A DNA stretch of 64,000 bases from positions 62,001 through 126,000 of the forward strand of contig JAKSLB010000004.1 in assembly GCA_024401435.1 (NCBI GenBank), written 5' to 3'. This stretch comes from Paludibacteraceae bacterium. Its GTDB lineage: Bacteria; Bacteroidota; Bacteroidia; Bacteroidales; Paludibacteraceae. Each line of letters opens with the position of its first letter. The stretch's first letter is position 1. Both the position numbers and the translations under genes were made by a program. The notes under the pieces are model-generated. The model was not told the origin of the DNA, did no database searches, and worked only from the letters and a program-made list of their open reading frames with translations. Shown here one piece after another: positions 25,226-55,071 of the stretch.

Positions 25226-26494
25226 ATGAGAACACGTATTAATTTTTCCGTTAACAATAAACCTCTATTAACTGTTTTAGATGTTGTCAGCTTGATTGAT
25301 GAAGATAAAGACTTTAGCTTGTCAGACCGTTTTGCAGATGCACTTTCTGCTGAAACACCCGAAGAAAAAGAAATCATCAAAGCAACATTTGAAAAAATGA
25401 ATGCGTTTTGGAAAACCGTTTATTTCTTGCTATCAGAAGATGATTGGGAAATGAATGGAGATGTTGACAGTCAGACTGAAGAACTTATGTACAATTATCA
25501 GAATGAAGTTCCAGACGAACATCCAAAACTTCTGTTTTATTTAACAAAAGACGGTGCAGTTTATGTTTACTATGCTATGAGATCTCTTTTGTTCGATGGT
25601 GTATTTCGTGGAAAAATTTTAGAACATACATACACCGATGGTGTCCTTAGTAACACTGCAGTATTCAGCTTCTCTTCAGAGAAGGAGAATCTTGACAAAG
25701 AAGTTTTCCGTAGATTTATTGACGATCTTTCAGAACATAGTGCAGTCATTCATGAATACTTTGACAGTTTATCGGATGAAGAATCTGAAGAATCAGAGGA
25801 AGACCTCACTGAGGAAACCGAAGGTACCGAGGAAGAATCTGAGGAATCTGAACCAGAGGCTGAGACAGAAGAGAACGAGGAAGCAGAAACTGAGTCTGAA
25901 GAAGAAACAGCTGAACCTCAAAATTTTAGTAATGTTTTATCAAACGGTCGAAAAGCTTTAGGTGAATTCTTTACTAAGCACCCACCTCTCGCGTATCTTG
26001 AAGGTGGTTTATTGACATTAGCTTTTGGGGGCATCATTGCTGCAACAATATATGCCAACAAAAACTATACTCAAAAACGACAACAGCTGTATGACTATTT
26101 CAAGCAGTTATTTGTTGACCATACAAATGAATGGCTATCCCCTGAAGATGGAAAGGTTCTATCAGGAGACCAAATGGATTCTCCAGAAAAATATTTCAAA
26201 CTGGATCCACCCGTTGACAGAGTCAGTAAAAGATTAATGGGTCTCATTTCATTAAATAATGGGAATACAATAGCGGCTGGGATGATGAACAAGGTTTATA
26301 ATGTCAATCCAGCTATAGGGTTTGATGGTGATTTCGGAATGGCATTGTCTACTGATGACACACACTATGGAAAACTTCATATCGGTGTTTATGACAATGC
26401 AGGACAACTGATAGATGAAAGAATTTTAAGACCCAATGCATCTATTCTAGAACTCACAGATGCTTTAACTACACTTGTTGAGTATAACAAATAA
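25226..26494 (+). CDS. Acidic membrane-segment head protein, 422 aa
   Basis: The start at 25226 gives MRTRINFSVNN (NFS at residues 6-8). A long Glu-rich stretch (about 185-235) ends at QNFSNVL, then a hydrophobic segment GGLLTLAFGGIIAATIYANK follows. The C-terminal part is a mixed domain. Acidic propeptides ended by a cleavage motif are common in phage internal proteins. No known family. Confidence 0.6.
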   Translation: MRTRINFSVNNKPLLTVLDVVSLIDEDKDFSLSDRFADALSAETPEEKEIIKATFEKMNAFWKTVYFLLSEDDWEMNGDVDSQTEELMYNYQNEVPDEHPKLLFYLTKDGAVYVYYAMRSLLFDGVFRGKILEHTYTDGVLSNTAVFSFSSEKENLDKEVFRRFIDDLSEHSAVIHEYFDSLSDEESEESEEDLTEETEGTEEESEESEPEAETEENEEAETESEEETAEPQNFSNVLSNGRKALGEFFTKHPPLAYLEGGLLTLAFGGIIAATIYANKNYTQKRQQLYDYFKQLFVDHTNEWLSPEDGKVLSGDQMDSPEKYFKLDPPVDRVSKRLMGLISLNNGNTIAAGMMNKVYNVNPAIGFDGDFGMALSTDDTHYGKLHIGVYDNAGQLIDERILRPNASILELTDALTTLVEYNK

Positions 26495-29319: not shown

Positions 29320-30762
29320 ATGGAAAATAGACTTGACGATAAAAATGTACAGCCAACAAACCCACAGGGAGTACCAGAGGAAAAAGAAGATCTCTCCTCC
29401 GACATTAAAAAGGGCGCGCTTGTTATGGGTGCAACAGGCGCTGCTGTTACAATCCCGCAGGAAGCAAAGTATGGTTCATTTGTTGCAGATGAATTACGTT
29501 CGCGGGTTCATTTAAAACATGGTACATCTGAAGCAGCTAAGAAATCTATTCAGGAACAAGGTTTACTGAAAAGTCATGCACTTGATCCATACAATATAAC
29601 TAACCGAGTCGCTCGTGAAACGGGCTTTACCCCGATTGAAGCTGTTTATACACAAAGAAGCTCTGCTAGTGCTAAAAAAAGCTCACATGCTCTTATACCA
29701 ACGATTAAAGATAATGTAGTTGAAATTGAAATCCCGTGGAAAGATTTCGATGAATTGGAAAAAGCAGGAAAGCTTATACAAGAAAACCCGGAGTTACTCG
29801 GTGGTAAGAAATGGGAAGAATACTATACTGCATGGAGAAAGACTGACGCTGTAGGTAAGATATTCAAAGATAGAAAATTATTTTATCTTAACGGTGGGTA
29901 TCCAGAATTTCTTGCAGAAAAATTAGCTGAGTTCGACCTTAAAGCGACAGCTAAGAATACATATAAGATACTTGCTCCTAGCGAAAGAAACACTGTTATT
30001 ATAGCAGACGATATTGCAACAAAGTTTATCAAAGGGTCAAAAGACTTTAATCCTTCTAAGTTTACAGATTGGTTAAAATATGTCAAAGAAAATCCTAAGC
30101 GTTTTTTAACAGGTATAGGTAAAGAAGGAAAACTTATGCTCAAGTTAGCAATTCCGATTGCTTTATGGGGCACTGCAGGTGCAGCATTAGGTGTGTTGGG
30201 TTATAAGCTATCTAAAATGGTAGAAGATGAAAGCGCCAAGGATAACGACGATATGTTACAAAATGAAAATTTAAAGAATTTTAGTCGCATTGCAAAGAAA
30301 TATTTTGATAGTACAAATGATCCTAAAACTAAAAAACCAATCAGTTTAGCTGATGAGAGCTATAACATTAGTTATAAACAGTGTACTGCTGCAATGATCG
30401 GTGGTGCGGCAATCAGCCAACAAAAGACTATGCTTACCAACATGTTGTCAGACCACAGTCTTGAAAAAGATTCACCTGCAATTTATTCCTTTAATAAATT
30501 AATGAAACAATTAGGACGCAATAAAGATATTATTGATGTTGGTGATATGAAAGCAGATCTATCAAACAATCGTGTACTACAAGATACCAAGAAAATATTC
30601 GACTACATGGACGACAAGACAAAATTTAAATTCTCAAGTATGTGGCGAGGCCAATACGAAAAGGTTATCAGTAAGTGTATAGCTAGCGGTTTGGTTAGTG
30701 AGAACAGTAAGCTAAATAAATTGTTCAAAGGCGCATCACTTCAGGAATTAATGGCTGCTTAA
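29320..30762 (+). CDS. ADP-ribosyltransferase-like packaged protein A, 480 aa
   Basis: Residues 60-240 resemble an ART/PARP/Tpt1-type fold: RVHLKHGTS (67-70) and IQEQGLL, then AVYTQRS, VEIEIPW and a closing NTVIIADDIATKFIKGS. The next gene has the same series. A hydrophobic helix (about 273-296) and then KNFS (residue 319 onward) separate a 150-residue C-terminal domain. Phage T4 Alt is a packaged ADP-ribosyltransferase processed by the prohead protease, a good precedent. Enzyme activity is inferred; the catalytic Glu is not assigned. Start at 29320 after GGAG. Confidence 0.5.
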   Translation: MENRLDDKNVQPTNPQGVPEEKEDLSSDIKKGALVMGATGAAVTIPQEAKYGSFVADELRSRVHLKHGTSEAAKKSIQEQGLLKSHALDPYNITNRVARETGFTPIEAVYTQRSSASAKKSSHALIPTIKDNVVEIEIPWKDFDELEKAGKLIQENPELLGGKKWEEYYTAWRKTDAVGKIFKDRKLFYLNGGYPEFLAEKLAEFDLKATAKNTYKILAPSERNTVIIADDIATKFIKGSKDFNPSKFTDWLKYVKENPKRFLTGIGKEGKLMLKLAIPIALWGTAGAALGVLGYKLSKMVEDESAKDNDDMLQNENLKNFSRIAKKYFDSTNDPKTKKPISLADESYNISYKQCTAAMIGGAAISQQKTMLTNMLSDHSLEKDSPAIYSFNKLMKQLGRNKDIIDVGDMKADLSNNRVLQDTKKIFDYMDDKTKFKFSSMWRGQYEKVISKCIASGLVSENSKLNKLFKGASLQELMAA

Positions 30763-31877: not shown

Positions 31878-32825
31878 ATGAACCCGACCAGTCTATTTTA
31901 TGTAAACAGATATTACACAAAAAACTTTGCAGAAACAAAGACAAATGCTGTGTATACATTACATACTGTAAAAAAGATCGACGTAGAGGATCATTGGTTT
32001 ATTAAAACTGGTGAATTCAATGTTAAGCTTCTTTGTGATGGTAAAGTTAGATATTATTATCTAACAGAAGACAAAGGTCATGCTGTCAGCACAAAGTCCG
32101 CGTTGTATTTTAAAATCCAAAAGAACGATGGCGATGTTATACCTGTATTTCTGGGATTTAGTTCCGATACTGGAGACAGTAATGGATTAGGTCTATATCT
32201 TGGGGGAAAATATCCAAGTGAAAAAATGGGTTCTAAATTTGATTACGGTACATTTGCACAGAATTTTTATGTACAGATAAACGAAAGTAGAAAAGATTAT
32301 AAAGACTATAAGCAATTTGCACCATGGGTAATGAAACATTTAGATAAAATTATTAAGGATGCATTAAAAGAACAACAGATTGATTATGATATGGACTCAT
32401 TCGACAAATGGGATTTCGTACATATCAGAGGAACAGAATCAATTGGATTTATAGCTGGTTTATTCAGTAATGAAAATGGGAAACAATTTCTTGATACCGA
32501 TATTTTATTAGAGATTATCGGTTATCGAATTTTCGCTGCTAAGAAGAATTTGTATAAGTTTACTTTGGATCAAGATTTTATTGCTAACGCATATGAAAAA
32601 GCACTTAAGTATATTGAAGAAAGCAAATTCGGTTCAGTGAAAGACGTTCCTGCAAAAGGAATTAATTCTGATAATATTGAAGTCTATAATATAGCACCAC
32701 ATCAAACAGTTGAACTGGGTTCTGGTCCGCAATCTGCAGTGTCAATACGTTTAGACGGACTTCCTCAAGTTTGGACAAAACACTTTATGGAACCGAATTA
32801 TAAAGGAGACACGACTAATGAATAA
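31878..32825 (+). CDS. Probable head-associated protein, 315 aa
   Basis: The N-terminal tag MNPTSLFYVNRYYTKNFAET ends in KNFA near residue 16. The remainder is a soluble alpha/beta protein with a Gly-rich stretch (LGLYLGGKYPSE). No known family is recognised. Its stop overlaps the next start region by eight bases. Confidence 0.55.
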   Translation: MNPTSLFYVNRYYTKNFAETKTNAVYTLHTVKKIDVEDHWFIKTGEFNVKLLCDGKVRYYYLTEDKGHAVSTKSALYFKIQKNDGDVIPVFLGFSSDTGDSNGLGLYLGGKYPSEKMGSKFDYGTFAQNFYVQINESRKDYKDYKQFAPWVMKHLDKIIKDALKEQQIDYDMDSFDKWDFVHIRGTESIGFIAGLFSNENGKQFLDTDILLEIIGYRIFAAKKNLYKFTLDQDFIANAYEKALKYIEESKFGSVKDVPAKGINSDNIEVYNIAPHQTVELGSGPQSAVSIRLDGLPQVWTKHFMEPNYKGDTTNE

Positions 32826-33621
32826 TCAAGTTTTTAATTACTATGCCACAAAAAACTATTATGCTGCTAAAAATTTTTCTGCAGCTGTGGCAATTGAAAC
32901 ACCTGACGTCCACAAATGGCTAAATATAGTTGAACAATTTAAAGATAAAAATACATATGAGAAGAACAGGGTTTTAGCTCAAGCTTATTTTCTTTTAGAA
33001 AATGCGGAAAAAGCAGATGAAGCTAAAATACTGGACGCATTAAAAACTTATGCAAACACTGTCAAGGTAAACGCACAAACAGGTATGATTGACGGAGAAG
33101 TCGAAACAGATCCTAAAACAGGTTTAACTCGACAAGAAAGATATTTTTATAAAATAGTATATCCAGAGGCTGCAGGCAGTGATGATGTCTCTCTACCACA
33201 GGTGGAGCCCTATTTGCGTTTTAAGAACTATTCGAAGATATTAGACACTGTAGACAACCAAAAGATCTTATGTAAATGTATATATGATGGTTTCAAAACT
33301 GCAGAAGCATCTTTTTGGCGTCCAGGTTCAGATGAGATAGTTTATACTCTTCGTGAGTTTTGTAGAAAATGTTTGGAGGAAGATTGGGATACCTATTCCA
33401 ATAAACTGCAAGATTTTCTTAAAGATGAAGGAATAACTCATCTCCAAACCATGTACGATTGGGACATGTTTGTAAAATTCTGTCCTGATCTATTGTTCAT
33501 TAAAAAGGCATATGAACATCTTGCCGGACAGTATTACAAAGTAAGAAACGAAAATCTTGACAAGGTTGATAGTTTTATCGTGCTTGGCGGGATTTGGTGT
33601 GATGCAGTTAAAAATAAATAA
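32818..33621 (+). CDS. Probable head-associated protein, 267 aa
   Basis: The N-terminus MNNQVFNYYATKNYYAAKNF continues SAAV, giving the tag plus KNFS near residue 19. The body is helical with several Cys and Trp residues. No family recognised. GGAG lies upstream and the gene is tightly packed. Confidence 0.55.
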   Translation: MNNQVFNYYATKNYYAAKNFSAAVAIETPDVHKWLNIVEQFKDKNTYEKNRVLAQAYFLLENAEKADEAKILDALKTYANTVKVNAQTGMIDGEVETDPKTGLTRQERYFYKIVYPEAAGSDDVSLPQVEPYLRFKNYSKILDTVDNQKILCKCIYDGFKTAEASFWRPGSDEIVYTLREFCRKCLEEDWDTYSNKLQDFLKDEGITHLQTMYDWDMFVKFCPDLLFIKKAYEHLAGQYYKVRNENLDKVDSFIVLGGIWCDAVKNK

Positions 33622-33636
33622 TCCATGGAGTTATAT

Positions 33637-34812
33637 ATGGAACATATAGTCGACCGGTTATTTACACGCAGCATGTTTGTAAAGAATTTTTCTAATGCAA
33701 ACAACTCTTTACAAATAAGTTTGCATTCTATTTTGAAGAAATGGGCAAAACGAACAAAACAACAAATGTTATTTAATGCTCTGACATCTTCAGACTTTCC
33801 TTCAAAAATTTTTTCATTTAATGATCATTTCGCCGCTTTAATCGAATCTCTCAGTAAACACAGCAATGGGGCTGGTACATGGAAAAGCGGTATACCTTCA
33901 GATTTAACGACAATGACATTTAATGATATTGCTTTTGTTCCTGGTAAAGACACATACGCTCTTGTTTGGAAATTTGAAAAAGAATTTAAGATGCTTAAAC
34001 CTGAAGATACCAAAGCTGTCTTATTTAATAAGTCTGATTTAAAGAACTTTGTTGATAGCAGTGATGTATCAGATGTTTTATTCTTTTCTTATAAGAAAGC
34101 AAATAATAAAACTGTTTCAAATTCTACAGAATCCAAAAAACAAATCTCAGGGCTGTCAGAAGAAAGTTTATCCCGATCAAAAATATCGAGTTATAATAAA
34201 GGTTTTAATAAAGTAATCCCTATGACTTATGTGAGTCAAGGGAGAGACGCGACAGGTTGTTTGAGAGCATCTACAAAAATGATCAATGGGTTTTTTAATA
34301 AAGAGGTTTTACCACCCCGAGGTGATACAAGTCAGGCGCACTGTATTATTGATAGATATGGAATGCAGTATCCTGGGGATAAGAAAAATAAGACTACTGT
34401 CAGAGTTAATACACGTGCTATGTACGCCGCTTTACTATATATACACAATTGTCTTGACCGTAAGCGCCCAGTATTAGCAGGTATCAATTATAAATTAATA
34501 CCTATTAGAAACAATGACGATGTTACAGATCATTTTATTGTTATCAATGGTTATGGAAAAGACTCTTATGGAGAATATTTGACCATTTTGGATCCTGCGG
34601 ATAAATATACAGAACACCATTTGGTAAAGATGTACGTACACGATGGCGCAGATAAAAAGGGTGTTTATCCTATGTCTGAGGCAAGTGACCAAAAAGATAG
34701 CAAATGTTATAAAGATAACTATCAATTAACTCAGATCCGTGTGTATACAGATGATAACTTTGAACAGATTACAGGGATGAAACAAATTACTGCAGAACAA
34801 TTGCCTAGATAA
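33637..34812 (+). CDS. C39/papain-like cysteine protease, packaged candidate
   Basis: The 391-residue protein has the tag with VKNFSNAN at residues 15-22. The C-terminal half resembles a C39-type cysteine peptidase: a Cys in DATGCLRAS (Cys208), a His in VTDHFIVINGYG (His299) and an Asp in ILDPAD (Asp319). Those three are the expected catalytic triad. Such domains cut peptides or isopeptide bonds. A packaged protease could process a host or capsid target after injection. The start at 33637 has GGAG six bases upstream. Confidence 0.55.
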   Translation: MEHIVDRLFTRSMFVKNFSNANNSLQISLHSILKKWAKRTKQQMLFNALTSSDFPSKIFSFNDHFAALIESLSKHSNGAGTWKSGIPSDLTTMTFNDIAFVPGKDTYALVWKFEKEFKMLKPEDTKAVLFNKSDLKNFVDSSDVSDVLFFSYKKANNKTVSNSTESKKQISGLSEESLSRSKISSYNKGFNKVIPMTYVSQGRDATGCLRASTKMINGFFNKEVLPPRGDTSQAHCIIDRYGMQYPGDKKNKTTVRVNTRAMYAALLYIHNCLDRKRPVLAGINYKLIPIRNNDDVTDHFIVINGYGKDSYGEYLTILDPADKYTEHHLVKMYVHDGADKKGVYPMSEASDQKDSKCYKDNYQLTQIRVYTDDNFEQITGMKQITAEQLPR

Positions 34813-35682: not shown

Positions 35683-36705
35683 ATGATCACACGTGATGCT
35701 GACTTGATTGTCAGAATGATTGACTTTACTAAACCTGGTGTTGGTACTAATCAGTTTATGTCAAAAGACTCTTTCATAGAAAATGTCATAAACAATGATT
35801 ATCATAAAAAACGTCTTAAAAATGGTATGTTAAAATGTTTACTGACACACCAGGGACGTGATTTTGCAGACAACAACCGTACAGGTACACCATATGATGA
35901 CATCCTTGCAACACACCCTGATATGTGTGGTGTTATGCGGGATGTCTGGATCGAAGGTGATTCTGCATATGCAGCAATTGATTTGTTCGATCCTGTTGCT
36001 TTTCCTGCTGCAGGTAAAGTAAAAGAACTTATCAAAAAAGGAACCTATGTAGGTGTTTCAATGGCAACAGAGTCTATTGAAGGACCACAGGGTAACTATG
36101 AAATTAAAGAACTTATCGGATGTGATTTCACTCTTGATAATTTCTTCATTGGAAGCGGTATCGTTACTATCAAGAAAAACTTCAGTCGTGGTAAGAACGG
36201 TTCCATTATTATGAACTTCTCCAATACCCCTGACAAAGAAAGATCATCTATTATTAAAGATAATTTTTCACTGAGGGAAATTATTAGAGAATCAAAAATG
36301 CCATATTATATGGTATTATCCAAACGTATCGTAGAAGCAATTACTGTGCTGAAAAACTTATCTCCGGAATTGATTAAAAAGAGCGCGCCCCAAATTAAAG
36401 CTTATATCAATGATATGATCTATAATTGGACAGCTGATGCACTTGTAAATCCGGGGCGGATTAACATTGCATTAGGTTTAAGAATCAATCGTTATTTGGA
36501 AAACCCACAAATTGCCAGTAGCTTCAATCAACGTATCAATATGATTAAGAACACCTATTCCAGAATGGGTTTTCTATCTAAAGTGCACCAAGCTAACTTA
36601 AATACCCTCATGGAAGAGCTACTGGACTCTCTATGGTCTTTCATCTGTAAGAAAGCAGGGATAGATAAAACTCTGTTAGCTGGTGTGAACCCAACAGAAA
36701 AATAA
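35683..36705 (+). CDS. Prohead maturation protease, 340 aa
   Basis: The N-terminal 165 residues fit a herpesvirus/T4 gp21-type serine protease: LLTHQGRD with candidate His56 and GTYVGVSMATE with candidate Ser126. The 70-residue spacing is typical. It then has KKNFSRGKNGS (166-168), MNFSNT (178-180) and DNFSLRE (194-196), three copies of the motif found in about twenty head proteins; self-cleavage there is plausible. The C-terminal 140 residues would be a scaffold-binding or delivery region. Position is before the scaffold-like genes and major capsid gene. Confidence 0.7.
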   Translation: MITRDADLIVRMIDFTKPGVGTNQFMSKDSFIENVINNDYHKKRLKNGMLKCLLTHQGRDFADNNRTGTPYDDILATHPDMCGVMRDVWIEGDSAYAAIDLFDPVAFPAAGKVKELIKKGTYVGVSMATESIEGPQGNYEIKELIGCDFTLDNFFIGSGIVTIKKNFSRGKNGSIIMNFSNTPDKERSSIIKDNFSLREIIRESKMPYYMVLSKRIVEAITVLKNLSPELIKKSAPQIKAYINDMIYNWTADALVNPGRINIALGLRINRYLENPQIASSFNQRINMIKNTYSRMGFLSKVHQANLNTLMEELLDSLWSFICKKAGIDKTLLAGVNPTEK

Positions 36706-36725: not shown

Positions 36726-38897
36726 ATGGACGATATCCACACTGAAGCTTTTGATAATGTTGCACCAATCCTTAATGTAGCAAGCATTGCAAGCTATCTT
36801 GATCCCAATTTAGTTGACAGTAACACTATCGAAGCTATTGCTGAAAGAACCGGTACTCCCACTGATTTGGTAGAGTCCATGGTAGAAGCCGTGTCTGAAG
36901 TGAAAGACCTTTTGTCTCAAGAAAATACAGACAAACAAGCTGTTCAACAACAGTTCTCTCGTTTTGTCAAACAATTGGGTAGAGAACTGGGACGTGTTCC
37001 TGAACGACGTCATTTTAGTAATCCAGTAGCTACTGCAGAAATCCTTCATGCGGTAAGCACTGACTGTATTCAAAACTTTAGCCATGACTCCCCTATCGTT
37101 AAAGATTTCTCGAACAGTCTTGGTGAAAATAAAGAGCTCGTGATTAGTTCTTTGAATGCTATGCATAAAAACTATGCGCGTACAGTTAATTTTGCTAACC
37201 CAAGAGTTATCAAAAAAGCTGTTCAAGGAACCCAGGCTCTAAACAAGATGGTGAAGGAAGCAGCTAATAAATCAGCTGCAGAAGCTGCTGTTAAAAAGAT
37301 AGACAATCTTGCTAAAACAAATTCTGAAGTGCAGAAAGTTGTTACAGACGTAATTAAAGAAAATGCACCGCGGGTTTATGGTGAAGCAGGGAAAGACATC
37401 GTAAAACAGTTAGAATCTGTTGTAAAAGACGCCAAACCTGGTGATGTAGTTAATGCTGTAAAAAATGCAACAGGTGATTATCTGAAAGCATTTAAGCAAA
37501 ATATTCTTGGGGTGGGCGTCAGTGCTGATCTTTGGAATTTTAAAGATCTTGTTAATTTAAAACTCCTCTCAAAAGATTCTGCAAAATTATTGGAGAGTAC
37601 AGGTGTTCGAGGCGAAACCTTAGCAGATGCGCTGAAAAACGGAAATCTCGCTATGGAAATCACAAAAGACATCGAAAAACAACTTTTAGATCTGAGAACA
37701 ATGACTGCTAAAATTGAGAAAGCTGCTCGTGAAGGAGCAATGTTCCCTGAAGGATGCTTACCTCCAGAAACAATACAGAAATTAGAAAAGCAGTTAAATA
37801 AACAGTTGAGTGCTAACAATAAGTTTATTGAGAAAAAGGTTCTTCCAGAAGCAAAGCGGTTACAGGATGTTCTTAACAATAGACAGGAAGCTTATCAACA
37901 GCTGTCCAATCTTTTAGCGGAATCCGGTGAGACATCGTCGAAAGCAATAGAAAAAATTCTTCCTAAAGACTATGTAAAGAGTGCTTCAGGAAAGAAATTA
38001 TTAGAACAATTGAAACGTGCAGAGTCTGTAGAAGAGCAACAAAAGGTTGTTCGTTCTATTAGAGAAGATCTTAGCAAATCAAATCAAGCGTTATCTGATT
38101 CTATAAAACAATGTCAGTCATTATCATACGAGACAACGAAGGTTGCAGATGAAGCTGCTACTGCTACTAAAGAAGTTCAAGCAGGAGTACAGCGTACTGT
38201 TGAACCAAGTGCGGATGAAATTATGGCTAACCTTGACAAAATGTCCAACGAGCAGAGAGCTGCACTTAACAAATACATGTTTAAAGATGTTACAAGTACT
38301 GCTGCTACGGAAGCAGCTCAAAAAGACATTGAAGAAGCTAAAGTTGTTGCTAAAGGTATTAAAGAAAAACTAGCTTCTGCAGGTAAAAAAGCTTTGGTTG
38401 GTACTGCTTTAGTTGGGGTTCCATCAGCTTTGATTTGGGCGGGTACAGGATCCGAAGATGATTTCTTAGGACAAAGATTGTTCCTGTACGATATTGATCA
38501 AGCAGAAAAACTCCGTGTCCAGGTTCAAGATCTTGAAAACCAGATCAAGCAACAGCAAAATGAACTTGTACGTGAAAATGAAGAACTGGTTGCAATGTCT
38601 CAGTCCGCTGAACAGAAGAACTTTTCAGCGGGTAGTATTTTAAAATCATTAGCTAAAGGAACCTTAACAGTTAGTGCAGTAGCTGCATCTGGTGCTGCCA
38701 CAGTTTATGGCGTAGCTGCAGTCAGAGATAAAATTCTTCGTATCAAAGCTCGAGAAAAAGAATTAGCGAACACTGTTAAAATGTATCGTATTAAGAAAAG
38801 TGAACTTAACCATACATTGCATAGAATGAACACTGCTGCAAAAAGATTCCAGTATGGGTATGATTATACCTTACCAGAACTTGCAAATGCCAGGTAA
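36726..38897 (+). CDS. Large coiled-coil internal/scaffold-like protein, 723 aa
   Basis: This is a long Ala/Lys/Glu-rich helical protein with RHFS, QNFS, VNFA and KNFS sites. It has two hydrophobic segments: GKKALVGTALVGVPSALIWA and, after KNFSAG, TLTVSAVAASGAATVYGVAA. Coiled coils and multiple cleavage sites suit a scaffold or internal protein dismantled by the protease. ATG at 36726 follows GGAG by nine bases; an ATG at 36708 is also possible. Confidence 0.6.
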   Translation: MDDIHTEAFDNVAPILNVASIASYLDPNLVDSNTIEAIAERTGTPTDLVESMVEAVSEVKDLLSQENTDKQAVQQQFSRFVKQLGRELGRVPERRHFSNPVATAEILHAVSTDCIQNFSHDSPIVKDFSNSLGENKELVISSLNAMHKNYARTVNFANPRVIKKAVQGTQALNKMVKEAANKSAAEAAVKKIDNLAKTNSEVQKVVTDVIKENAPRVYGEAGKDIVKQLESVVKDAKPGDVVNAVKNATGDYLKAFKQNILGVGVSADLWNFKDLVNLKLLSKDSAKLLESTGVRGETLADALKNGNLAMEITKDIEKQLLDLRTMTAKIEKAAREGAMFPEGCLPPETIQKLEKQLNKQLSANNKFIEKKVLPEAKRLQDVLNNRQEAYQQLSNLLAESGETSSKAIEKILPKDYVKSASGKKLLEQLKRAESVEEQQKVVRSIREDLSKSNQALSDSIKQCQSLSYETTKVADEAATATKEVQAGVQRTVEPSADEIMANLDKMSNEQRAALNKYMFKDVTSTAATEAAQKDIEEAKVVAKGIKEKLASAGKKALVGTALVGVPSALIWAGTGSEDDFLGQRLFLYDIDQAEKLRVQVQDLENQIKQQQNELVRENEELVAMSQSAEQKNFSAGSILKSLAKGTLTVSAVAASGAATVYGVAAVRDKILRIKAREKELANTVKMYRIKKSELNHTLHRMNTAAKRFQYGYDYTLPELANAR

Positions 38898-38913: not shown

Positions 38914-39894
38914 ATGCAGTTAACACAAGCACACGCGCTTTATGGTACACAGCTGATATCAAATACTTTGAAAGATGCTGGTATGTTAGAGGAAAATAAA
39001 GCGCTCTATATTAAAGCAGAAGACTTAGAAGATGCTATCTATGCATGTAAGAACATCGAGAAGATTCAGGAAAAAATAGGCAACATCCAATCACAAATTG
39101 ATGCTTTAGACCACAAGATGTCCGACCTTGAAGCTGATATTCAAAATGCTCTGTTGGTTGAAGATCAACATTTGTCAGACATATCAGTAAATAAAAACTT
39201 TTCTGTACCAACAGCTATTTCAAGCGTATGGTCAAAAATAAAACCTTTTATCGAGATGATAAAAACAGGATACACTAAAGTACCAAAAACTTTAAAAATC
39301 ATTTTAAGCGGATTTGCTGTTCTTGGTGCTACATATTTTATTACTGCACTTCCCGGGATGTGTAAAGCATTTCTAGATGCAGAAAGAGAAAAGAAAGCCC
39401 TTGAACAACGTGTTGCTGAAATAAATACAGATGAGCTCTTAGTTGAAAAAGAAAGACTTTTAAGTTATCTTTTAGATTTAAAAGAAGCTGATGATGCAAA
39501 ACAGAAACAAGATCTTGTATTAGCATTACCCGCCCCAGAAGAAGAGACGACAGTTAGTGATGTAGCTGTTGACAATGATGTTACAGAGCCTGTTACTGAT
39601 ATTCCACAAATCAGCTTTTCCAAACAAAATTTTAGTGTTGATGGAAACGTGTTAGATAAGTTAACTCAGTATTTTCTATCACTCAAACCCGACGCAAAAA
39701 AATTAGGTGAGGGGGTATTGAGCTACATTATTATACATTATGTTGGTAACATGCTGAATACAATAGATAGCTTGACAACAGAAAAAGCGAAACAGCTGAT
39801 CAGCTCACCAGAGACACCTGAGGTTACTGAGGAGTCTGTAGAGCTAAAACCACTTCTAATGAGGAATGGAGATATTCAAAATGAACAACAATGA
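38914..39894 (+). CDS. Coiled-coil membrane-segment head protein, 326 aa
   Basis: The N-terminal part is a coiled coil (about 40-75). KNFSVPTA (about residue 92) is followed by an amphipathic region and a membrane-like helix IILSGFAVLGATYFITALPG, then another coil and KQNFSVDGN. Two motifs would release a hydrophobic middle piece. Function unknown. Confidence 0.55.
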   Translation: MQLTQAHALYGTQLISNTLKDAGMLEENKALYIKAEDLEDAIYACKNIEKIQEKIGNIQSQIDALDHKMSDLEADIQNALLVEDQHLSDISVNKNFSVPTAISSVWSKIKPFIEMIKTGYTKVPKTLKIILSGFAVLGATYFITALPGMCKAFLDAEREKKALEQRVAEINTDELLVEKERLLSYLLDLKEADDAKQKQDLVLALPAPEEETTVSDVAVDNDVTEPVTDIPQISFSKQNFSVDGNVLDKLTQYFLSLKPDAKKLGEGVLSYIIIHYVGNMLNTIDSLTTEKAKQLISSPETPEVTEESVELKPLLMRNGDIQNEQQ

Positions 39895-41152
39895 TATTGT
39901 TTTGCAAGAAAAAGATCTCCAGGGTGAACATGTTAATTTTGTTCTGCCCGCTATACCTCTTATTTGGAGTGCAATTAAAGCTATTGCAGGAGTAGTCGGT
40001 GTAATTTTATTTGCAAAAGACGTTTATAAATTTGTAACAGAAACAGTTCCTAATTTAATATCAAAATTAAATAAATATAAGAAAGCTTTACAAGAAGCCG
40101 CCCCTAAACAGAAGGAAATTGATAAGAAGCGTGAACGATTGATTGAGCAGCAAAAGAAATACGTACAGAAAATGATTCCGATGCTTGCTGAATTGGTACA
40201 TATTTCTGAAGAGAATCCATCTTTATATAAAATGGATCCGCAGAAGAAAGCTTTCATTGTTCAACTTAATGATTTCTTTCAGGGGCCCGCTTTTAAAAAT
40301 TTATTGGAAAATAATGAACTGTCAGAACTTGACGCTCAAAAGCTTCAATCTCTTATGAGTGATTTTCAGAACACAGGCTTTATAAAAGAAGAACATGCAG
40401 AAGCATCTGCAGATTCAAGTGTATTGAAAAGCGCTGCAGAAATGGGGTTGAGCTTTGCAGGTTTTGAGCTGATGTTGCAATCCGAAAAAGACGCTGCTTT
40501 ACTTGGTGGAAAGCTGGTTTCAAAAGCAGGAGAAACTGCAATCAAAAAAGGTGCAGAAACAGCTGCGAGTAAAGCAATGATGGGTGCTGGTAAGACATTA
40601 GCTTTTGCAGGGAAAGCGTCTGCAAAATTATATAGTATGGCAGGTTTTGCAATAACTGCTGTTATTTTAGACGGTTTACCGTGGATAGCTAACTCTGCTT
40701 TAGACAGTAAGTTTGAAAAATTGAGTAAAGACCAGTTGACATATGATAAAACCATGTTAGAACTGGATCAAGCTGAAAACGTCATTACACAACAATTATC
40801 ACAGTACCAAGCTATGATTGAAACGGATATAAAAACACTTCGTGATAAAGCTAAAGAATCAGATTTATCTCCTCAGAAGAGAGAAATGTTGGAAAAACGT
40901 TTAACCAAGTTGGAAAAGTCTTTAGCTGAAGTACAACAAACAAAAAACTTCTCTGTTGCAAGCACTGCATGGGAAGCAACTAAGTTAGTTGGGAATGCAG
41001 CTAAAACAATTTTAAGCAACAAAACTGTTGATGCAGCTCTTGTTGGTATGGTTGCAGGTATGGCCATAGAAAAATATCGTACCAAGAAAGAGAAAGAAGA
41101 AGCTGAAAGACTTCTGATGGAACAAGCACGTCTGATGAAGAAGTTTCGGTGA
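39881..41152 (+). CDS. Membrane-segment head protein, 423 aa
   Basis: The start at 39881 (MNNNDIVLQEKD) has GGAG nine bases upstream, inside the preceding gene's end. A hydrophobic N-terminal segment (LPAIPLIWSAIKAIAGVVGV) is followed by a coiled coil, an Ala-rich amphipathic region and TKNFSVAST (about residue 354), then a second hydrophobic stretch. It overlaps the previous gene by 14 bases. Function unknown. Confidence 0.55.
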   Translation: MNNNDIVLQEKDLQGEHVNFVLPAIPLIWSAIKAIAGVVGVILFAKDVYKFVTETVPNLISKLNKYKKALQEAAPKQKEIDKKRERLIEQQKKYVQKMIPMLAELVHISEENPSLYKMDPQKKAFIVQLNDFFQGPAFKNLLENNELSELDAQKLQSLMSDFQNTGFIKEEHAEASADSSVLKSAAEMGLSFAGFELMLQSEKDAALLGGKLVSKAGETAIKKGAETAASKAMMGAGKTLAFAGKASAKLYSMAGFAITAVILDGLPWIANSALDSKFEKLSKDQLTYDKTMLELDQAENVITQQLSQYQAMIETDIKTLRDKAKESDLSPQKREMLEKRLTKLEKSLAEVQQTKNFSVASTAWEATKLVGNAAKTILSNKTVDAALVGMVAGMAIEKYRTKKEKEEAERLLMEQARLMKKFR

Positions 41153-41171: not shown

Positions 41172-42743
41172 ATGGATATGTTAAATACAAATGAACCACT
41201 GACTGATGCACCTATGCTTGATCGTATGGTCGTACCGCCACAGAATCCGCTTGCAACTGCAAACATGTTAAATCTAATGGACCCACTTAAAATCGGTGAA
41301 GAAGAACGTTCAATGTTAGCTGATGCTACTGGACTTCAACATCAATTTATTGATAAAGTTTTACACGTAATAGACAGATCCTCTGATGAATGTGTCAACT
41401 TTTCATTTGCAGTAGCGAAAGAAAATCTGTCTTCACGTGTAAACTTATTATGCAATGCTGTCAATTTTTCTGAGTTACCACAATTGGAACCAGTTGATGC
41501 TAACGTAAAACTGTTTGAAGTAGCAAACATTGTTCCATTATTTAGTGATGAAGTGATTGCAGAAGGTAATCCTGAAGCCATTGCAGACATCGTATCTAAA
41601 GCGACAGGTGTTGATAAAGATCAAGCAAAAGAAGTTATTAGTGTCGCACAGCGTTTTGATCAGGAACAGTTTTTATCAGATAAATCTGAAAATGAAGACT
41701 TCAGACCAATTTTAAATATGACAAGCGATGATTCTGATGTACAGGATGTTTATGATTCCTGGCATGCAGTAAAAACAGACATCGCAGAATCTGCATCATA
41801 TGGTGCAACTGAAGCAATACAGGAAATTGCTTTGGGTCTTTGTGGAGATGATGTCAAGATAGTACCTATGTCAGTAGACTATGAGCAGATGAAAACTGAA
41901 GACAGTCTTAGTCTACATGTAGCATCATCTACATCTGTATCAGCTATCGCGCAGTTAGCTGTCTCTATTGCTGACACAATTGTAATGAAAGCTGCAGCTG
42001 AGTTAGAAGAGGACAAGTCTGAAAAATTTGATGATGAGTCCATTGAAAACAGCATTGTTGCTGGTACATGCTTACAGAATTTTTCATCTATCAGAGAAGA
42101 ATATTTTATCAAGCAAAGTACAGAAGAAATTGATCAGTTGAAAAGTGATTTTGCAAAATATTTATGTATGTTAGGTAACAAATTCAATCTTGAGGATGGT
42201 TTCTGGGCAGGACTATGTGATTTCATTTCCAGACACAGTCATGTCTATGGAGAACATTTAGGTAATATCTTAGTAAAAGTGTTACCGACAAAGGTCCAAA
42301 CTAGAAACAAACAATTTTTGTTTGGTGTCTGTGCTGACAATAGAAATGATATGCTTAAAGTTTTTCAGTGTAATCTAACTAAGAGTGATGCTATAGACCT
42401 TGTATCCAAAGATGTAGAAAACAACTATATGTTATGCTTAGGCGTAGCTGTATATGCTTGGATAAAGGTCTGTGATGGAATGATTACAGCATTGGACAAC
42501 ACAGATAAAAGTTTGTTAGCTCAACTGGAAACTACAGAGAACAATATTGTTGAGTCCATTGTAAAATATGGTACATCTTTACAAGGTTGTGTTTCTAATC
42601 ATAATTTTTCAGAATCAGAAGACATTATGTCATACGATGATGCTTTAACTGATGAATTACCAGATGAAGATAATTTAGAAGGTGAAGCAAAGTATTTAAG
42701 AGACGATCTGGTCTCTGCTGATCAGTCTGCATTGATAAATTAA
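41172..42743 (+). CDS. Acidic head-associated protein, 523 aa
   Basis: An acidic helical protein with VNFS twice, QNFSSIREE and HNFSESED sites. No known domain is recognised. GGAGATATTC lies upstream of its ATG, and the promoter motif at 42747 starts four bases after its stop. It may be a scaffold or internal protein. Confidence 0.55.
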   Translation: MDMLNTNEPLTDAPMLDRMVVPPQNPLATANMLNLMDPLKIGEEERSMLADATGLQHQFIDKVLHVIDRSSDECVNFSFAVAKENLSSRVNLLCNAVNFSELPQLEPVDANVKLFEVANIVPLFSDEVIAEGNPEAIADIVSKATGVDKDQAKEVISVAQRFDQEQFLSDKSENEDFRPILNMTSDDSDVQDVYDSWHAVKTDIAESASYGATEAIQEIALGLCGDDVKIVPMSVDYEQMKTEDSLSLHVASSTSVSAIAQLAVSIADTIVMKAAAELEEDKSEKFDDESIENSIVAGTCLQNFSSIREEYFIKQSTEEIDQLKSDFAKYLCMLGNKFNLEDGFWAGLCDFISRHSHVYGEHLGNILVKVLPTKVQTRNKQFLFGVCADNRNDMLKVFQCNLTKSDAIDLVSKDVENNYMLCLGVAVYAWIKVCDGMITALDNTDKSLLAQLETTENNIVESIVKYGTSLQGCVSNHNFSESEDIMSYDDALTDELPDEDNLEGEAKYLRDDLVSADQSALIN

Positions 42744-42843: not shown

Positions 42844-44892
42844 ATGAAAAAATCACGTTATTTTAGTCGTTGGAATTTTGCTGAAGGTGATATGACTGAG
42901 GAACAACCACAAGGTTCCGTCGAAGAGCTTGTCGAAGCTGAAACTGCCGAGACTGCTGAACCTGCTGCAGAACCAATGTTAGCAATTGAAGAACAACCCG
43001 TACAAGAAAGCATTATGCTTCCATCTATCACCAGCGATGACTATGTTATCAATGGTTTGAGTGACGCTGTTAACTTTGTTGTTAATGATGCTAATGCTAT
43101 GAAACTTGTTATGGAGTTTCTTGTAAGTCTTTGTGGGGCTGAAAAAGCTGCACACGAAATGATTAATCATTTAGATGAAGAACAACTTGCTCAACTTGAT
43201 GAAGCTATTGAGAGCTATTTTGACAGCAAGGAAGGTTTGTCTGAAGAAGAAAAAGCTACAGAAAAAGCCTATGTCAAAACATGGTTGAGAACCAAAGTTG
43301 CTGTTGCACAAAATTTCTCAAGTATTCGTTATGCTGAAGACGTTGCTAATCTTCGTAAGATTAAACACTCTATGCGTCGCTACTATTCTGCCTGTCGTAA
43401 AAATTTTGGATTAATTAACGGTGCAAAAGGCATATATAACGATGCTGTTATGGGCGTTGCTAAAGTATTAAATAAACCTAAACAGTATCAACAGCTTAGA
43501 CAGGTTGAAAAATACAAAAATGTCTTACAGAAAGACATAAATGATTACAAACCCATGAAAGGCGTTGCTATTAGAGCTTGGGGTGACAAACTAAAACAAG
43601 AGTCTGAAATTGCAAAACTTACACATCAACGTGATCAAGCAGGACTTAAAGATCGTATACTTGATCATCTTGATGGTGGCGACAGAAAACGAATTTTGAC
43701 TAATCAGATCGAAGATGCAAAAAAACTACTGGAAGCTGATAAAAAAGTCATTGCTGACGACGTAAATGCCTGGGAGGTCTTTAGACAAAGAGATGCTCAA
43801 ATTAAAAAGCTTCATGATCTTGCATTTCTTCCAAGCGATCGTACTAAAACAGCAGCTAAAGTTTTAGTTGACTTGGGCCTTGTTTCTCCATTGATTATTG
43901 CCGGTGGTACACTTATCGATGCAAAAATGGAAACAGCTAAAGAAGTTGCAAAATTAAAAATCAGTGTAGCTCCAATGATTGATTATGCTCTTTGTGATAA
44001 GATCAATGAGTTAGCAGGTGATGCACTTATGTCTGACGATCTGTTAGATGCAATGCTCTTGGACCTTGTTCTTGATGAAAATAATCCTAAATTTGATTTG
44101 AATGCAGAAATTCCAGAAGATGTTTTGAAATTCTATGCTGACAAATTGAACGAAAAACTTGCTAATTTCCTCGAAGTAAAACTTGCTGAAGGAAAAGAAC
44201 CAGAAGTTCAAGCTCTTCCTGAATCTACTGCAGAGTTTTCTTGTAAGAAAGATTTCTCTGTGAAAAAGAAACGTTCTAATCCATTTGGTATTTATAACTT
44301 CGCTGATGAAGATGAAGAGTCTGAAGAAGCTCCTGCTGATGAGAATGAGGAACCTTCTGATGACATGTCCGACGAAGAAGCCATGGATGATAGTTCTATG
44401 GAATTCGATGATGAAGGTCTAGATGAAGCTAATGACTCTGAAGATTCAGAAGAAGATTCCGAAGAAGAAGCTGACGAAGAACTTCCTGAAGAAGACGAAG
44501 AATATGACATGTCAAACGACGAAGTCGGTTATGATGAAGAAGAACATGAAGATGAGTTGACTGAGTCTCACGAAGAAGCTCCTGCTGCACCTGCAGTTGT
44601 CGCTCCTCGTGGTGAAGATATCCAAATTCCACACAGCAACGATCAAGTCATGGGTTCATCTATTTCTGATGAAAGTATGCGTCAGAGTGCTGACGCTGAT
44701 GCTTTCGATTCAAAACCTGGTGAGTTGACTTTGTCTGCAGCTAATGCTGGTGAAGCTATGGCTATGCAGAATGAAATGGCAACACTTCGTGGTATTAGTA
44801 GCACTGAAAGTAACTTCTCAAGAAAACAACAAATGTCTGCTGGGAAAAACAGTTCGCTGTTAAGTCTTCTCGGTGATCGTTATATCCGATAA
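42844..44892 (+). CDS. Acidic scaffold/internal protein with LLGD tail, 682 aa
   Basis: The N-terminus SRYFSRWNFAEGD is followed by Glu-rich, helical and hydrophobic regions, then QNFSSIRYAED, KKDFSVKKK, YNFADED, an Asp/Glu/Ser-rich run of about 90 residues (about 480-580), and SNFSRKQQMS. It ends LLSLLGDRYIR. The same LLGD-x-YI-K/R ending closes the next two proteins. The plan, acidic scaffold with many cleavage sites just upstream of the capsid gene, suits the major scaffold or core protein. Confidence 0.6.
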   Translation: MKKSRYFSRWNFAEGDMTEEQPQGSVEELVEAETAETAEPAAEPMLAIEEQPVQESIMLPSITSDDYVINGLSDAVNFVVNDANAMKLVMEFLVSLCGAEKAAHEMINHLDEEQLAQLDEAIESYFDSKEGLSEEEKATEKAYVKTWLRTKVAVAQNFSSIRYAEDVANLRKIKHSMRRYYSACRKNFGLINGAKGIYNDAVMGVAKVLNKPKQYQQLRQVEKYKNVLQKDINDYKPMKGVAIRAWGDKLKQESEIAKLTHQRDQAGLKDRILDHLDGGDRKRILTNQIEDAKKLLEADKKVIADDVNAWEVFRQRDAQIKKLHDLAFLPSDRTKTAAKVLVDLGLVSPLIIAGGTLIDAKMETAKEVAKLKISVAPMIDYALCDKINELAGDALMSDDLLDAMLLDLVLDENNPKFDLNAEIPEDVLKFYADKLNEKLANFLEVKLAEGKEPEVQALPESTAEFSCKKDFSVKKKRSNPFGIYNFADEDEESEEAPADENEEPSDDMSDEEAMDDSSMEFDDEGLDEANDSEDSEEDSEEEADEELPEEDEEYDMSNDEVGYDEEEHEDELTESHEEAPAAPAVVAPRGEDIQIPHSNDQVMGSSISDESMRQSADADAFDSKPGELTLSAANAGEAMAMQNEMATLRGISSTESNFSRKQQMSAGKNSSLLSLLGDRYIR

Positions 44893-44906: not shown

Positions 44907-45827
44907 ATGAAATGTAATTTTTCTGAAGAAGAAATTCAAACAGCAGTTACAGAATGGGCAGAAGAAAATCCTGAGACCGCGCAAGCTATTGTCAGTAACC
45001 CTGAACTTTTAGATACTATACCTGAATCTAAAAGCAATGCATTTGTTCAGTGGATTAAAGACCATCCTATTAAGTTTGGTGCACTGATCGGAGCTATCGG
45101 TTTAGGAACTATAGGTGCACTGAAGGGTAATAGAATATTGAAAGACCTACCAGACCTAGAAAAAACGATAATGGAAGGGTATATAAAAGACACAGCCAAG
45201 GCAGTGAATATGGATCCAGATAAGCTCAAAAGAGGTATTAATGGAGCATTTACCACCGCTGGTGCACTTGGCTATGGTATAGAGGGTGCTCTTTTAGGTA
45301 CAGGTGGTGGTGCTGTTGCAAATGCTATTATCAATAAAAACTTCTCTTCAACAGAAGCTGAAGACGAAGAAATGGTTGAAGCTGCAGCAGAGATGGTGAA
45401 AAATGATCCTGAAGCTGCACAAGCACTTGCAGTTACCATACTTAATCCTGAACAACTAAAACAGTTACAAGATGCAGATACCGAACATTCAAACAAATTC
45501 TGCAAATGGGTTTTACAAAACCCCGGAAAAGCTTTAGCTGTTTTTGCAGGATTATTGGGAAGTGTTGCACCCATGATTAAAGGTCGTGGGCCAAGTATAA
45601 TGGGAGCTGCTCTTGCAAGCAATAGCGGATTGATTATCGGTAGAATGTTAGGGTGGTTAGGATTAGATAACCTTGCTGAAGATCTTTACAAAGATGAAGA
45701 CAGCACATCAGAACAACAAAAAGATACTGATAAACCTGCTCCAGAAACACATAATTTTTCTGTTAAACAGCCTGTTGCTTCAACCAAAGGTTTAACCCGT
45801 TTACTTGGCGATAACTATATCAAGTAA
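44907..45827 (+). CDS. NFS-module internal protein with LLGD tail, 306 aa
   Basis: Two related modules are present: MKCNFSEEEIQ ... ENPETAQAIV ... WIKDHPIKFGALIGAIGLGT and KNFSSTEAEDEE ... NDPEAAQAL ... WVLQNPGKALAVFAGLLGS. It ends HNFSVKQ then TKGLTRLLGDNYIK. Each module is an acidic helix pair followed by a Trp-Pro-hydrophobic segment. The N-terminal 75 residues are paralogous to those of the next gene. Start at 44907 has GGGAGG upstream. Probably packaged. Confidence 0.6.
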   Translation: MKCNFSEEEIQTAVTEWAEENPETAQAIVSNPELLDTIPESKSNAFVQWIKDHPIKFGALIGAIGLGTIGALKGNRILKDLPDLEKTIMEGYIKDTAKAVNMDPDKLKRGINGAFTTAGALGYGIEGALLGTGGGAVANAIINKNFSSTEAEDEEMVEAAAEMVKNDPEAAQALAVTILNPEQLKQLQDADTEHSNKFCKWVLQNPGKALAVFAGLLGSVAPMIKGRGPSIMGAALASNSGLIIGRMLGWLGLDNLAEDLYKDEDSTSEQQKDTDKPAPETHNFSVKQPVASTKGLTRLLGDNYIK

Positions 45828-45843: not shown

Positions 45844-47670
45844 ATGAAACGTAATTTTTCAGAAGAAGCTGAGATTAAGGTTGTCAGCGATTGGGTCGTT
45901 GACAATCCTGAATTAGCTCAAGCTATAGTTGAAGATGTTGAGACTCTTGATGTTGTCCCAACAAACGAAGAAAACGAGGGTATCCTTGGTTGGATTAAAG
46001 AAAATCCAATTAAATTTGGTGCGATCGCTACAGGTATTCTTGGCGTGGGTGTAGCTGCTTTAGTTCCATCTTTTAGAAATAAAATTGCAGAAAGCGCCCA
46101 AAAACTGTTACCAAAAGCAAAAGAAGCTGCTGCAGAAGCGGAAGCTGTTGCTGCTGAAGCTAGTAAAACCACCAGTACTGTTGCTCCTGAAGCCAGTAAG
46201 CTTTCTCCTTTTGAAAAATGGTTAGAGGAAGAGAAGAAAGCTCGTGGACTTGCTCACAATTTTGCTGCTTGTGATGCTTTAGCGCAAAAACTTACACAAG
46301 ACTGGTTTATCTGTGAACCACAGTGTCAACCATTGATCGCGGAACAACTCAAAGCTGCTTGTGTCCCTTGTGATACCTTTGAACCTGCTTTAAGATGTAA
46401 TCGTTTCCAATATGATGGTGATGCTCCAGTTTCACATAAAGAACTGGAAGCTCTGGATCGTATCCAAGGATTTGTCGAGGACTTACGTAAAGAAGCTACT
46501 GCTGGTAATCTCCCAGGAATCATTATGGTTTCTGAAAAGAAAGCTTTTGCAAAGAAACAAGTCTTACGTAAATTCTTAAAGAACTTTGCTTTAGATATGG
46601 AAGATCTTGGTACACCAGAAGATATCATGGAAGCTGAAGAAGCTGATGTCGATCTGATGAAACCAGAGATGTATCAAGAAGTAGCTGAAGCTGCTGAAAA
46701 TGGTACTCTTCCTGAAGGTTTAGTTGCTCCTTCTTCAATGGATCCTGCAGAGATGGGTCATGCCTATGATGAAGTGATGGATTCTACCATTGCAGATGAC
46801 GATGTTGGTATCGAACAAGAAGACATGAGCAATTATGATGCTGAACAGGGTGAATTGAGTCTCTCAGCTGCTCCTGCTGGTGATGCTATGGCTCGTATCA
46901 ACAGTGAAGCTATTATCAGTGATGATATTATGGTTCAAAACTTTGCCAATATGTCTGAAACAGCTAAAAATGCTTTCAAATGGTTGCGTGATGCTCAATT
47001 CGGTAAAATGATTGAAAAAGCTGGTGCTCCGTTGAAAGAAGCTGAAGCTAAAGTTGCTAAAGCAGACGAACTCTTTAAAAACAATGCAGAAAATATAGCT
47101 GATGCAATCAAAGAGGCTAAAAGCATAACTAAGAAAAATTCTAAGCTATCCAATGCTGATATTTTAGATAAAGCTTATAAGTCTGCAGATAAAAATATCC
47201 AAGAATTTAAAAACTTAGTAAATGCTGACCAACTATATCAGGCTAGTGAAAAAGGTTTGCAGAAAGCTGTTGAAGAAGCAGATGCTATTCGACCAGGTGT
47301 AGAAGAAGCCGTCAAAAACGCCAATAAGATTGCAGACAATGTCACTAAAGCTGAGGTAGGTGCTATTGGTGCTGGTGCTATTGGTGGTCTTGGCTATGGT
47401 GGTTATAGTCTTTACGATGCATTGAAAGATAACTCTGAAGAGCTTTCAGCAGAAGAGCCAATGTATTCAGAAGAGGAACCCGCTGTAGAAGAGTCAGCTG
47501 AAGAAGTTATTGCTCCTGTTCAACCTATCATGGCTGATGAAGCTGCTGCTCAGAACTTCTCACGCAGTTTACATCGTAAACAAGCTGCTTCTCAGAATTT
47601 CTCTGCTAAGAAACCAGTTGTTACAACTAAAGGTTTGTCACGTTTACTCGGTGATAAATACATTAAATAA
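45844..47670 (+). CDS. NFS-module internal/scaffold protein with LLGD tail, 608 aa
   Basis: The product starts MKRNFSEEAEIKVVSDWVVD and carries the same Trp-Pro-hydrophobic module as the preceding gene (WIKENPIKFGAIATGILGVG). HNFA, KNFA, QNFA and two QNFS sites follow, then an acidic and helical body, and the tail TKGLSRLLGDKYIK. ATG at 45844 has AGAGGT upstream. It lies directly before the major capsid gene, the usual scaffold position. Confidence 0.6.
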   Translation: MKRNFSEEAEIKVVSDWVVDNPELAQAIVEDVETLDVVPTNEENEGILGWIKENPIKFGAIATGILGVGVAALVPSFRNKIAESAQKLLPKAKEAAAEAEAVAAEASKTTSTVAPEASKLSPFEKWLEEEKKARGLAHNFAACDALAQKLTQDWFICEPQCQPLIAEQLKAACVPCDTFEPALRCNRFQYDGDAPVSHKELEALDRIQGFVEDLRKEATAGNLPGIIMVSEKKAFAKKQVLRKFLKNFALDMEDLGTPEDIMEAEEADVDLMKPEMYQEVAEAAENGTLPEGLVAPSSMDPAEMGHAYDEVMDSTIADDDVGIEQEDMSNYDAEQGELSLSAAPAGDAMARINSEAIISDDIMVQNFANMSETAKNAFKWLRDAQFGKMIEKAGAPLKEAEAKVAKADELFKNNAENIADAIKEAKSITKKNSKLSNADILDKAYKSADKNIQEFKNLVNADQLYQASEKGLQKAVEEADAIRPGVEEAVKNANKIADNVTKAEVGAIGAGAIGGLGYGGYSLYDALKDNSEELSAEEPMYSEEEPAVEESAEEVIAPVQPIMADEAAAQNFSRSLHRKQAASQNFSAKKPVVTTKGLSRLLGDKYIK

Positions 47671-51435: not shown

Positions 51436-51543
51436 AATACACCTCCAGCAGCCTTTCGCGGCTTATGTGTATTATGTACACCATATAGATTTACTTTTCA
51501 AGAATTATTTTAGTCTCTAATCGGGAGTGATTTTCCTGTTGCA

Positions 51544-55038: not shown

Positions 55039-55071
55039 AAACAGCTCCTTTCTATGCTGATTACGTGTATT

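Follow-up and report, generated by a model that had tools for sequence, protein, structure and literature searches.

The gene of a putative prohead protease (P0001, 340 aa) lies at positions 35683..36705 on the plus strand of a 64,000-nucleotide window, which covers positions 62,001-126,000 of the 203,429-bp contig C139. All positions given below are window coordinates, and features are on the plus strand unless stated otherwise. Genes were called on the whole contig with our own simple hexamer-based method, and 219 genes were obtained. The P0001 gene sits in a head cluster, downstream of the terminase large subunit gene (TerL, P0003, 26507..28336) and upstream of the major capsid protein gene (MCP, P0002, 47798..49495). 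Its product has a catalytic region of approximately residues 1-165, with His56 (35848..35850) as the candidate catalytic histidine, Ser126-Met127-Ala128 (36058..36066) carrying the candidate nucleophile, and Asp148 (36124..36126) as the candidate third residue of the triad. Three copies of NFS, at residues 166-168 (36178..36186), 178-180 (36214..36222), and 194-196 (36262..36270), read exactly as a previous sequence-only reading of this DNA had described them, and each is a candidate autocleavage site.

For counting, the head block was defined as genes 108-139 with the three homing nucleases excluded, giving 29 genes and 12,188 aa, with boundaries chosen after the NF[SA] sites were known. The comparison set consisted of the 187 genes (48,501 aa) outside the block on the same contig. 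The homing nucleases are three related minus-strand ORFs at 49591-55080, which lie inside the plus-strand head block just past the MCP gene.

Family and active site of P0001

P0001 gave no Pfam or PHROGs match at E 0.1. An HK97-type protease (Peptidase_S78) was considered and rejected: PF04586 gave no match at E 0.001 anywhere in the bin. With five proteases as the reference, an earlier hhalign comparison gave a weak result for P0001 (E 0.0038, probability 8.8%). When 29 gp21-type homologues were used in hmmsearch, P0001 ranked second of the 219 proteins, with an E value of 0.73. When the same homologues, with P0001 left out, were used in hhalign, P0001 ranked first of 167 contig proteins with a score of 42.3 (next 27.5), an E value of 1.6e-5 for the single comparison, and a probability of 79%.

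Alignments were built from P0001 and 29 of 43 IMG/VR homologues (A5, 30 rows) and from P0001 and 12 other sequences including T4 gp21 (A7, 13 rows). N23, H56, S126, and D148 were invariant in both, so the His-Ser-Asp order of the gp21 group is also found in P0001. In the hhalign comparison, S126 and D148 fell on the family Ser and Asp, and His56 matched the family's His column in the Viterbi alignment and was displaced by one position once realigned. For SPN3US gp245, the triad is H77, S153, and D178 (PMC5694885); its columns were invariant in a seven-sequence alignment (A8), but the His column was filled there by a P0001 histidine other than His56. The gene order is also that of T4 gp21 (PDB 5jbl), the P0001 gene lying between the packaging and portal genes and the MCP gene, and the His, Ser, Asp, and Asn23 columns are common to both enzymes.

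A departure from the group was found two residues after the nucleophile. This position was basic in all 43 IMG/VR homologues (42 Arg, 1 Lys), which are not independent sequences, as two are on the same contigs as loci L016 and L017 and some are near-identical. It was also basic in T4 gp21, SPN3US gp245, 201phi2-1 gp268, and the enzyme of KTN4 (phiKZ species), which served as a stand-in for phiKZ. T4 gp21 has Ser-Ser-Arg and the other three have Ser-x-Arg, whereas P0001 has Ser-Met-Ala, with Ala128 at the family Arg/Lys position. The basic Ser+2 residue is our own observation on the gp21 group and not a published criterion.

P0001 also differs from T4 gp21 in its longer C-terminal part and its NF[SA] sites. 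The three NFS sites lie 19, 31, and 47 residues past Asp148; SPN3US gp245 autocleaves at E203, 25 residues past the triad residue D178 (PMC5694885). Taken as a family assignment, it appears probable from these comparisons that P0001 is a very diverged gp21-type enzyme, the prohead protease of a large tailed phage.

NF[SA] is enriched in the head block

The sequence-only reading had counted about 43 copies of Asn-Phe-Ser/Ala in about 20 head-side proteins. Our recount gave 42 copies in 19 of the 29 head-block genes, the other 10 having none. In 2000 within-protein shuffles, which preserve amino-acid composition, the expected number was 4.45±2.06 and the maximum was 13. Outside the block, 17 copies in 16 genes were found against 15.18 expected (SD 3.78), which is background, so the motif is neither at its shuffled frequency in the head-block proteins nor raised in the others. 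No tripeptide was more over-represented in the block than NFS (30 versus 2.15, p 4.2e-24), while the best p value of any tripeptide over 200 shuffled head sets was 2.1e-7.

The motif was absent from TerL, which served as an internal negative control, from the RecU-like ORF at 23009-23530 (read from the ORF list, since our own gene call makes this ORF shorter), from the three homing-nuclease ORFs, and from the 38 leftward genes of the window (genes 69-106). These absences had been claimed before and all hold. The 32 genes downstream of the block (140-171) contain two copies.

Could such an excess arise from composition, shared gene ancestry, or a DNA-level motif? There are two paralog clusters within the block (genes 117-118 and genes 128-130), and its boundaries were drawn after the motif had been seen. 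Because of these post hoc boundaries, a fixed tiling of the whole contig into 22 blocks of 10 genes was also performed. Genes 120-129 had 22 copies versus 1.3 expected (p 1.6e-19) and genes 130-139 had 13 versus 1.9 (p 1.5e-7), and these two tiles hold most of the excess; genes 110-119 (5 versus 1.3, p 0.01) and genes 170-179 (4 versus 0.9, p 0.013) were weakly raised. When only the member with the fewest sites was kept from each paralog cluster, 26 genes remained, with 31 copies versus 3.93 (p 7.3e-18). Moreover, the 42 sites are encoded by 21 distinct 9-base words, and such varied codons indicate that selection acts on the peptide and not on the DNA. With composition preserved in the shuffles, an artefact of this kind is refuted unless the gene calls are grossly wrong, and we regard it as extremely improbable. 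The NF[SA] excess is real, far above chance, at the protein level, and confined to the head block among all proteins of the contig.

The related motif YF[SA] was not raised block-wide (4 in 12,188 aa versus 19 in 48,501 aa outside), and 9 of the 20 contig copies of [KR][YH]F[SAD] were within the first 40 residues of their proteins.

Positions of the sites in head proteins

Of the 42 block sites, 11 are within the first 25 residues, against 2.51 expected (p 2.6e-5). N-terminal sites are present in the head-block proteins encoded at 18985..20904 (NFA at 11), 20920..22254 (NFA at 19), 31878..32825 (NFA at 16), 32818..33621 (NFS at 19), and 33625..34812 (NFS at 21), and in an acidic head-block protein at 25226..26494, with NFS at 6 and 233. 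The product of 23523..25220, with NFS at 11, is the probable portal protein, as judged from gene position and a weak tblastn match (E 0.8) to a Va2 protein adjoining the Va2 terminase. The protein encoded at 33625-34812 weakly matches a C39-like cysteine peptidase, at an E value of 0.0007 that does not reach the Pfam cut-off, and is a possible packaged peptidase.

Downstream of the protease gene lie three core or scaffold-like proteins at 36726..38897 (sites 117, 155, and 632), 38914..39894 (sites 95 and 239), and 39881..41152 (site 356), followed by a core protein at 41172..42743 (sites 76, 98, 303, and 478). Next are three scaffold-like paralogs, at 42844..44892 (sites 11, 157, 485, and 657), 44907..45827 (sites 4, 145, and 283), and 45844..47670 (sites 4, 139, 247, 366, 571, and 585). 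They share a C-terminal LLGDxYI[KR], present as LLGDRYIR, LLGDNYIK, and LLGDKYIK, respectively, and the last NFS of each is 25, 23, and 23 residues before the end. In herpesviruses, assemblin is freed from its C-terminal part, cuts Ala|Ser, and clips the scaffold tail approximately 25 residues before the end. The three tails resemble the herpesvirus tail in this distance from the end, which is a likeness of position rather than of compared sequences, and the predicted site here is NF[SA], unlike Ala|Ser. Herpesvirus assemblin is related to gp21 (PMC5694885).

The MCP carries NFA17 (47846-47854) and NFS76 (48023-48031), with GFS35 and KFS58 between them. Aligned to nine MCPs, identified by annotation or position, P0002 showed 16-19% identity, and its single weak tblastn match was the Vibrio phage Va2 MCP. 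NFS76 lies about 12 alignment columns from L-T-E65 of T4 gp23 in a poor alignment (12% identity); T4 gp23 loses 65 residues (PMC9958956). Further sites were found in a large head-block protein at 56398..59352 (161, 415, 542, and 942; PHROG DNA-binding match, E 1.1e-9) and in the last gene counted in the block, 61417..62166, whose NFA at 57 may be there by chance.

T4 capsid targeting sequences (CTS) are short N-terminal peptides that bring cargo into the head and are cleaved off by the prohead protease (PMC9026906). The same types of place, namely core proteins, the capsid arm, and N-terminal targeting peptides, are substrates of T4 gp21 (PMC9026906), and the site positions in this phage match those of known gp21-type substrates. 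N-terminal peptides here would end NF|[SA], unlike the T4 CTS with L/I-x-E.

The predicted scissile bond

Within the block, Phe and Ser/Ala are both strict. Among NFx tripeptides with other residues at x seen at least three times, Val (4 versus 1.7) and Tyr (3 versus 1.2) were the most frequent relative to chance. The position before Phe is looser, with Asn at 42 versus 4.4, Gly at 11 versus 3.4, Ser at 13 versus 5.3, and Asp at 10 versus 5.5; GF[SA] is thus raised in the block, but KF[SA] is not (2 versus 6.4). Lys or Gln is ahead of Asn at 21 of the 42 sites, and the residue after Ser/Ala is hardly constrained.

SPN3US gp245 favours Ser at P1' (PMC10052503). Together with this preference, the strict Phe and Ser/Ala fit an assignment of P2-P1|P1' as N-F|S/A, and with moderate confidence we favour a cut between Phe and Ser/Ala, as predicted from the motif. 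Alternatively, the same protease could cut these sites behind Ser/Ala (NF[SA]|), so that P1 would be small, as it is in herpesvirus assemblin. Ser/Ala and Phe are equally strict, and the missing basic Ser+2 residue would suit a small P1 equally well. However, such a cut needs a strict Phe at P2, a position left free in the gp21-group motifs as published in the sources available (L/I-X-E, A-X-E), and it would place the hardly constrained next residue at P1', where gp245 favours Ser. We therefore consider a cut after Ser/Ala unlikely and retain Phe|Ser/Ala as the predicted bond.

Glu motifs in T4, in this phage, and in a second phage of the bin

According to the sequence-only reading, gp21-type enzymes cleave after Glu. 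PMC9026906, PMC5694885, and PMC10052503 agree with this, as far as their available text goes, and the published gp21 motif is L/I-X-E (PMC9026906). A two-residue scan of six T4 substrates ranked I.E and L.E at the top (p 5e-4 and 0.003), which is modest among 800 patterns. [LI].E was counted 46 times versus 22.5±4.1 in these substrates and, in eight T4 proteins outside this set, 34 times versus 27.4±4.7. None of the x.E patterns was head-specific in this phage (L.E 117 versus 85.6 in the block and 364 versus 290 outside), and a Glu motif in the head proteins was rejected for this reason.

The same bin contains a second phage contig, C172 (137,303 bp; L094-L100), with a gp21-type protease at G000:C172:11884-12687 (L093:1498-2301) that has Ser-Ser-Arg. 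In a scan of the first 30 residues of all genes, NFS was the top pattern of C139 (11 versus 1.32), while C172 gave LNE (15 versus 2.84), L.E (62 versus 33.9), and LTE (10 versus 1.77). In seven C172 genes the N-terminus follows the pattern MKxxLLTExExxxVxxIL.E and resembles a capsid-targeting sequence that has L-x-E sites. NF[SA] was at background in C172, both near the protease (1 versus 1.7) and elsewhere (10 versus 14.2). In the 21 genes around the C172 protease, [LI].E was not clearly raised (69 versus 58.5±7.5), and the top patterns were SA and LS. The two phages thus both combine a gp21-type protease with recurring N-terminal peptides, but they differ in the motif, and each motif agrees with the Ser+2 residue of its own protease, the specificity of the C172 enzyme being predicted.

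These comparisons also bear on whether NF[SA] is a docking motif of core, scaffold, or targeting peptides, with the protease cutting elsewhere, perhaps still after Glu. NF[SA] recurs at N-termini and scaffold tails, places that are also used for targeting; a two-part form, NFS[RD]xx[KN][KR]YF[ASD], occurs in three N-terminal copies and one internal copy and resembles a docking helix; and cleavage at NF[SA] is predicted from sequence. Several observations argue against docking: the block offers no head-specific x.E pattern as a substitute, the protease itself carries sites past its catalytic region, as does the arm of the MCP, P0001 is missing the Ser+2 Arg found in those compared enzymes that are tied to Glu cleavage, and the recurring N-terminal peptides of C172 carry L-x-E instead. 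A docking role in place of cleavage is thus, in our judgement, quite improbable, and NF[SA] is treated below as a predicted cleavage site.

Candidate cargo outside the head block

Outside the block, 6 of the 17 NF[SA] copies are in the first 25 residues, against 1.65 expected (p 0.004). Four of these genes, 173, 183, 192, and 200 (sites at 7, 4, 7, and 9), look like cargo, while the sites of genes 61 and 164 (at 16 and 21) may have arisen by chance. Gene 192, at L007:6065-8068 (contig 172065-174068), encodes an SNF2-type helicase with NFS at residue 7, is distant from the head block, and is a candidate packaged helicase. Genes 153, 200, and 201 (L005:12388-14061, L007:18876-19079, and L007:19072-19338), also distant from the head block, begin with N-terminal KYF[AS] or RYFD, which may be a second flavour of N-terminal peptide.

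Relatives of the phage

Single-protein queries with the protease, TerL, or MCP found no close relatives in viral contigs, and neither did the MCP or the TerL alignment in genome contigs. TerL alignments against viral contigs found 8 and 21 loci at 22-32% identity, while the MCP alignment and a DNA pattern of the scaffold C-terminus gave no viral-contig match. The MCP was searched for in genomes of the family (300) and the phylum (395), and TerL in genomes of the order (393) and the phylum (395); these searches returned only the phage's own contig, besides one short TerL match with stops (E 9e-4). The distant relatives with head genes (L010-L014, L016, L017, and L023-L025) had no clear NF[SA] excess, and among 101 sources scanned for NF[SA] only the phage's own contig stood out. 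Next after it came L023 (Vibrio phage 1.031.O), with a slight excess of 7 copies versus 1.69 (p 0.0018), which is not significant for 101 tests. L015, the nearest TerL relative (32%), has KNFS near the start of its first ORF, which overruns the contig end; it is a single, uncounted case.

Proposed role of P0001

The enrichment of NF[SA], its confinement to the head block, the positions of the sites, the triad alignment, and the missing basic Ser+2 residue were computed directly. On this evidence, and with no head-specific x-x-E, the proposal that a prohead protease here uses an NF[SA] site instead of x-x-E is well supported. P0001 is probably a diverged prohead protease of the T4 gp21 and phiKZ gp175 group, with a His-Ser-Asp triad, that would recognise NF[SA] and cut Phe|Ser/Ala. 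We infer that the sites are cut, that the bond is the one named, and that the lost Ser+2 Arg explains the change at P1; the Ser+2 residue would then be the one that reads P1 Glu in the rest of the group.

P0001 would be enclosed in the prohead together with core, scaffold, and cargo proteins, where it would recognise Asn-Phe-Ser/Ala, preceded by Lys or Gln in half of the sites, and cut the Phe|Ser/Ala bond. By cutting itself at one or more of the three NFS sites it would release its catalytic region, and it would trim the N-arm of the capsid protein at NFS76, break up the core and scaffold proteins, and clip the C-terminal tails of the three scaffold-like paralogs. It would also strip short N-terminal targeting peptides off packaged proteins, some of them encoded distant from the head genes. 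This predicted programme resembles that of phiKZ gp175, 201phi2-1 gp268, and SPN3US gp245 (MEROPS S80), which have many head substrates, N-terminal propeptides, and C-terminal autocleavage (PMC10052503, PMC5694885). Unlike the cut predicted for P0001, these enzymes are reported in the available text to cut after Glu (S/A/G/T-x-E, A-x-E).

It seems reasonably likely that P1 of a gp21-group enzyme has switched from Glu to Phe here, that the basic Ser+2 residue was lost, and that the sites were rewritten to match in about 20 head proteins and in distant cargo genes, including that of the SNF2-type helicase. A Phe specificity would be new, as the studied members of the group (T4, phiKZ, 201phi2-1, and SPN3US) cut after Glu according to the available portions of the papers cited, and a Phe-specific prohead protease was found in none of the titles and abstract openings among the open-access literature matches listed. 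If P0001 is Phe-specific, an essential assembly protease can acquire a different S1 preference even when dozens of sites have to follow, and comparing such a member with the rest of the group would help to show how specificity is determined. It would also mean that the specificity of prohead proteases can evolve, and that motif statistics on the head block and on N-termini allow it to be read blind from a genome. A blind scan of this type, which ranked the known T4 motif first, may make it possible to predict, for uncultured phages and from sequence alone, the protease specificity, the substrates, and which proteins are packaged; its cargo nominations in this phage are the SNF2-type helicase and several small unknown proteins.

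Other genes of the contig

Two head-block proteins, encoded at 29320..30762 and 30778-31794, are paralogs with 29% identity and a V/L-HGT...GL stretch reminiscent of ADP-ribosyltransferase or Tpt1-like folds. The first of them, without a Pfam match at E 0.01, has an internal NFSRIAKKYFD at residue 320. The contig also encodes a Cas3-like HD-helicase (L001:4366-6537), an intein-containing protein (L002:89-2431), a protein with a weaker, below-cut-off intein match (L002:16042-18480), an anaerobic ribonucleotide reductase (L003:8611-12063), and a protein with Rpb2 domain 6 of RNA polymerase (L008:2364-5414).
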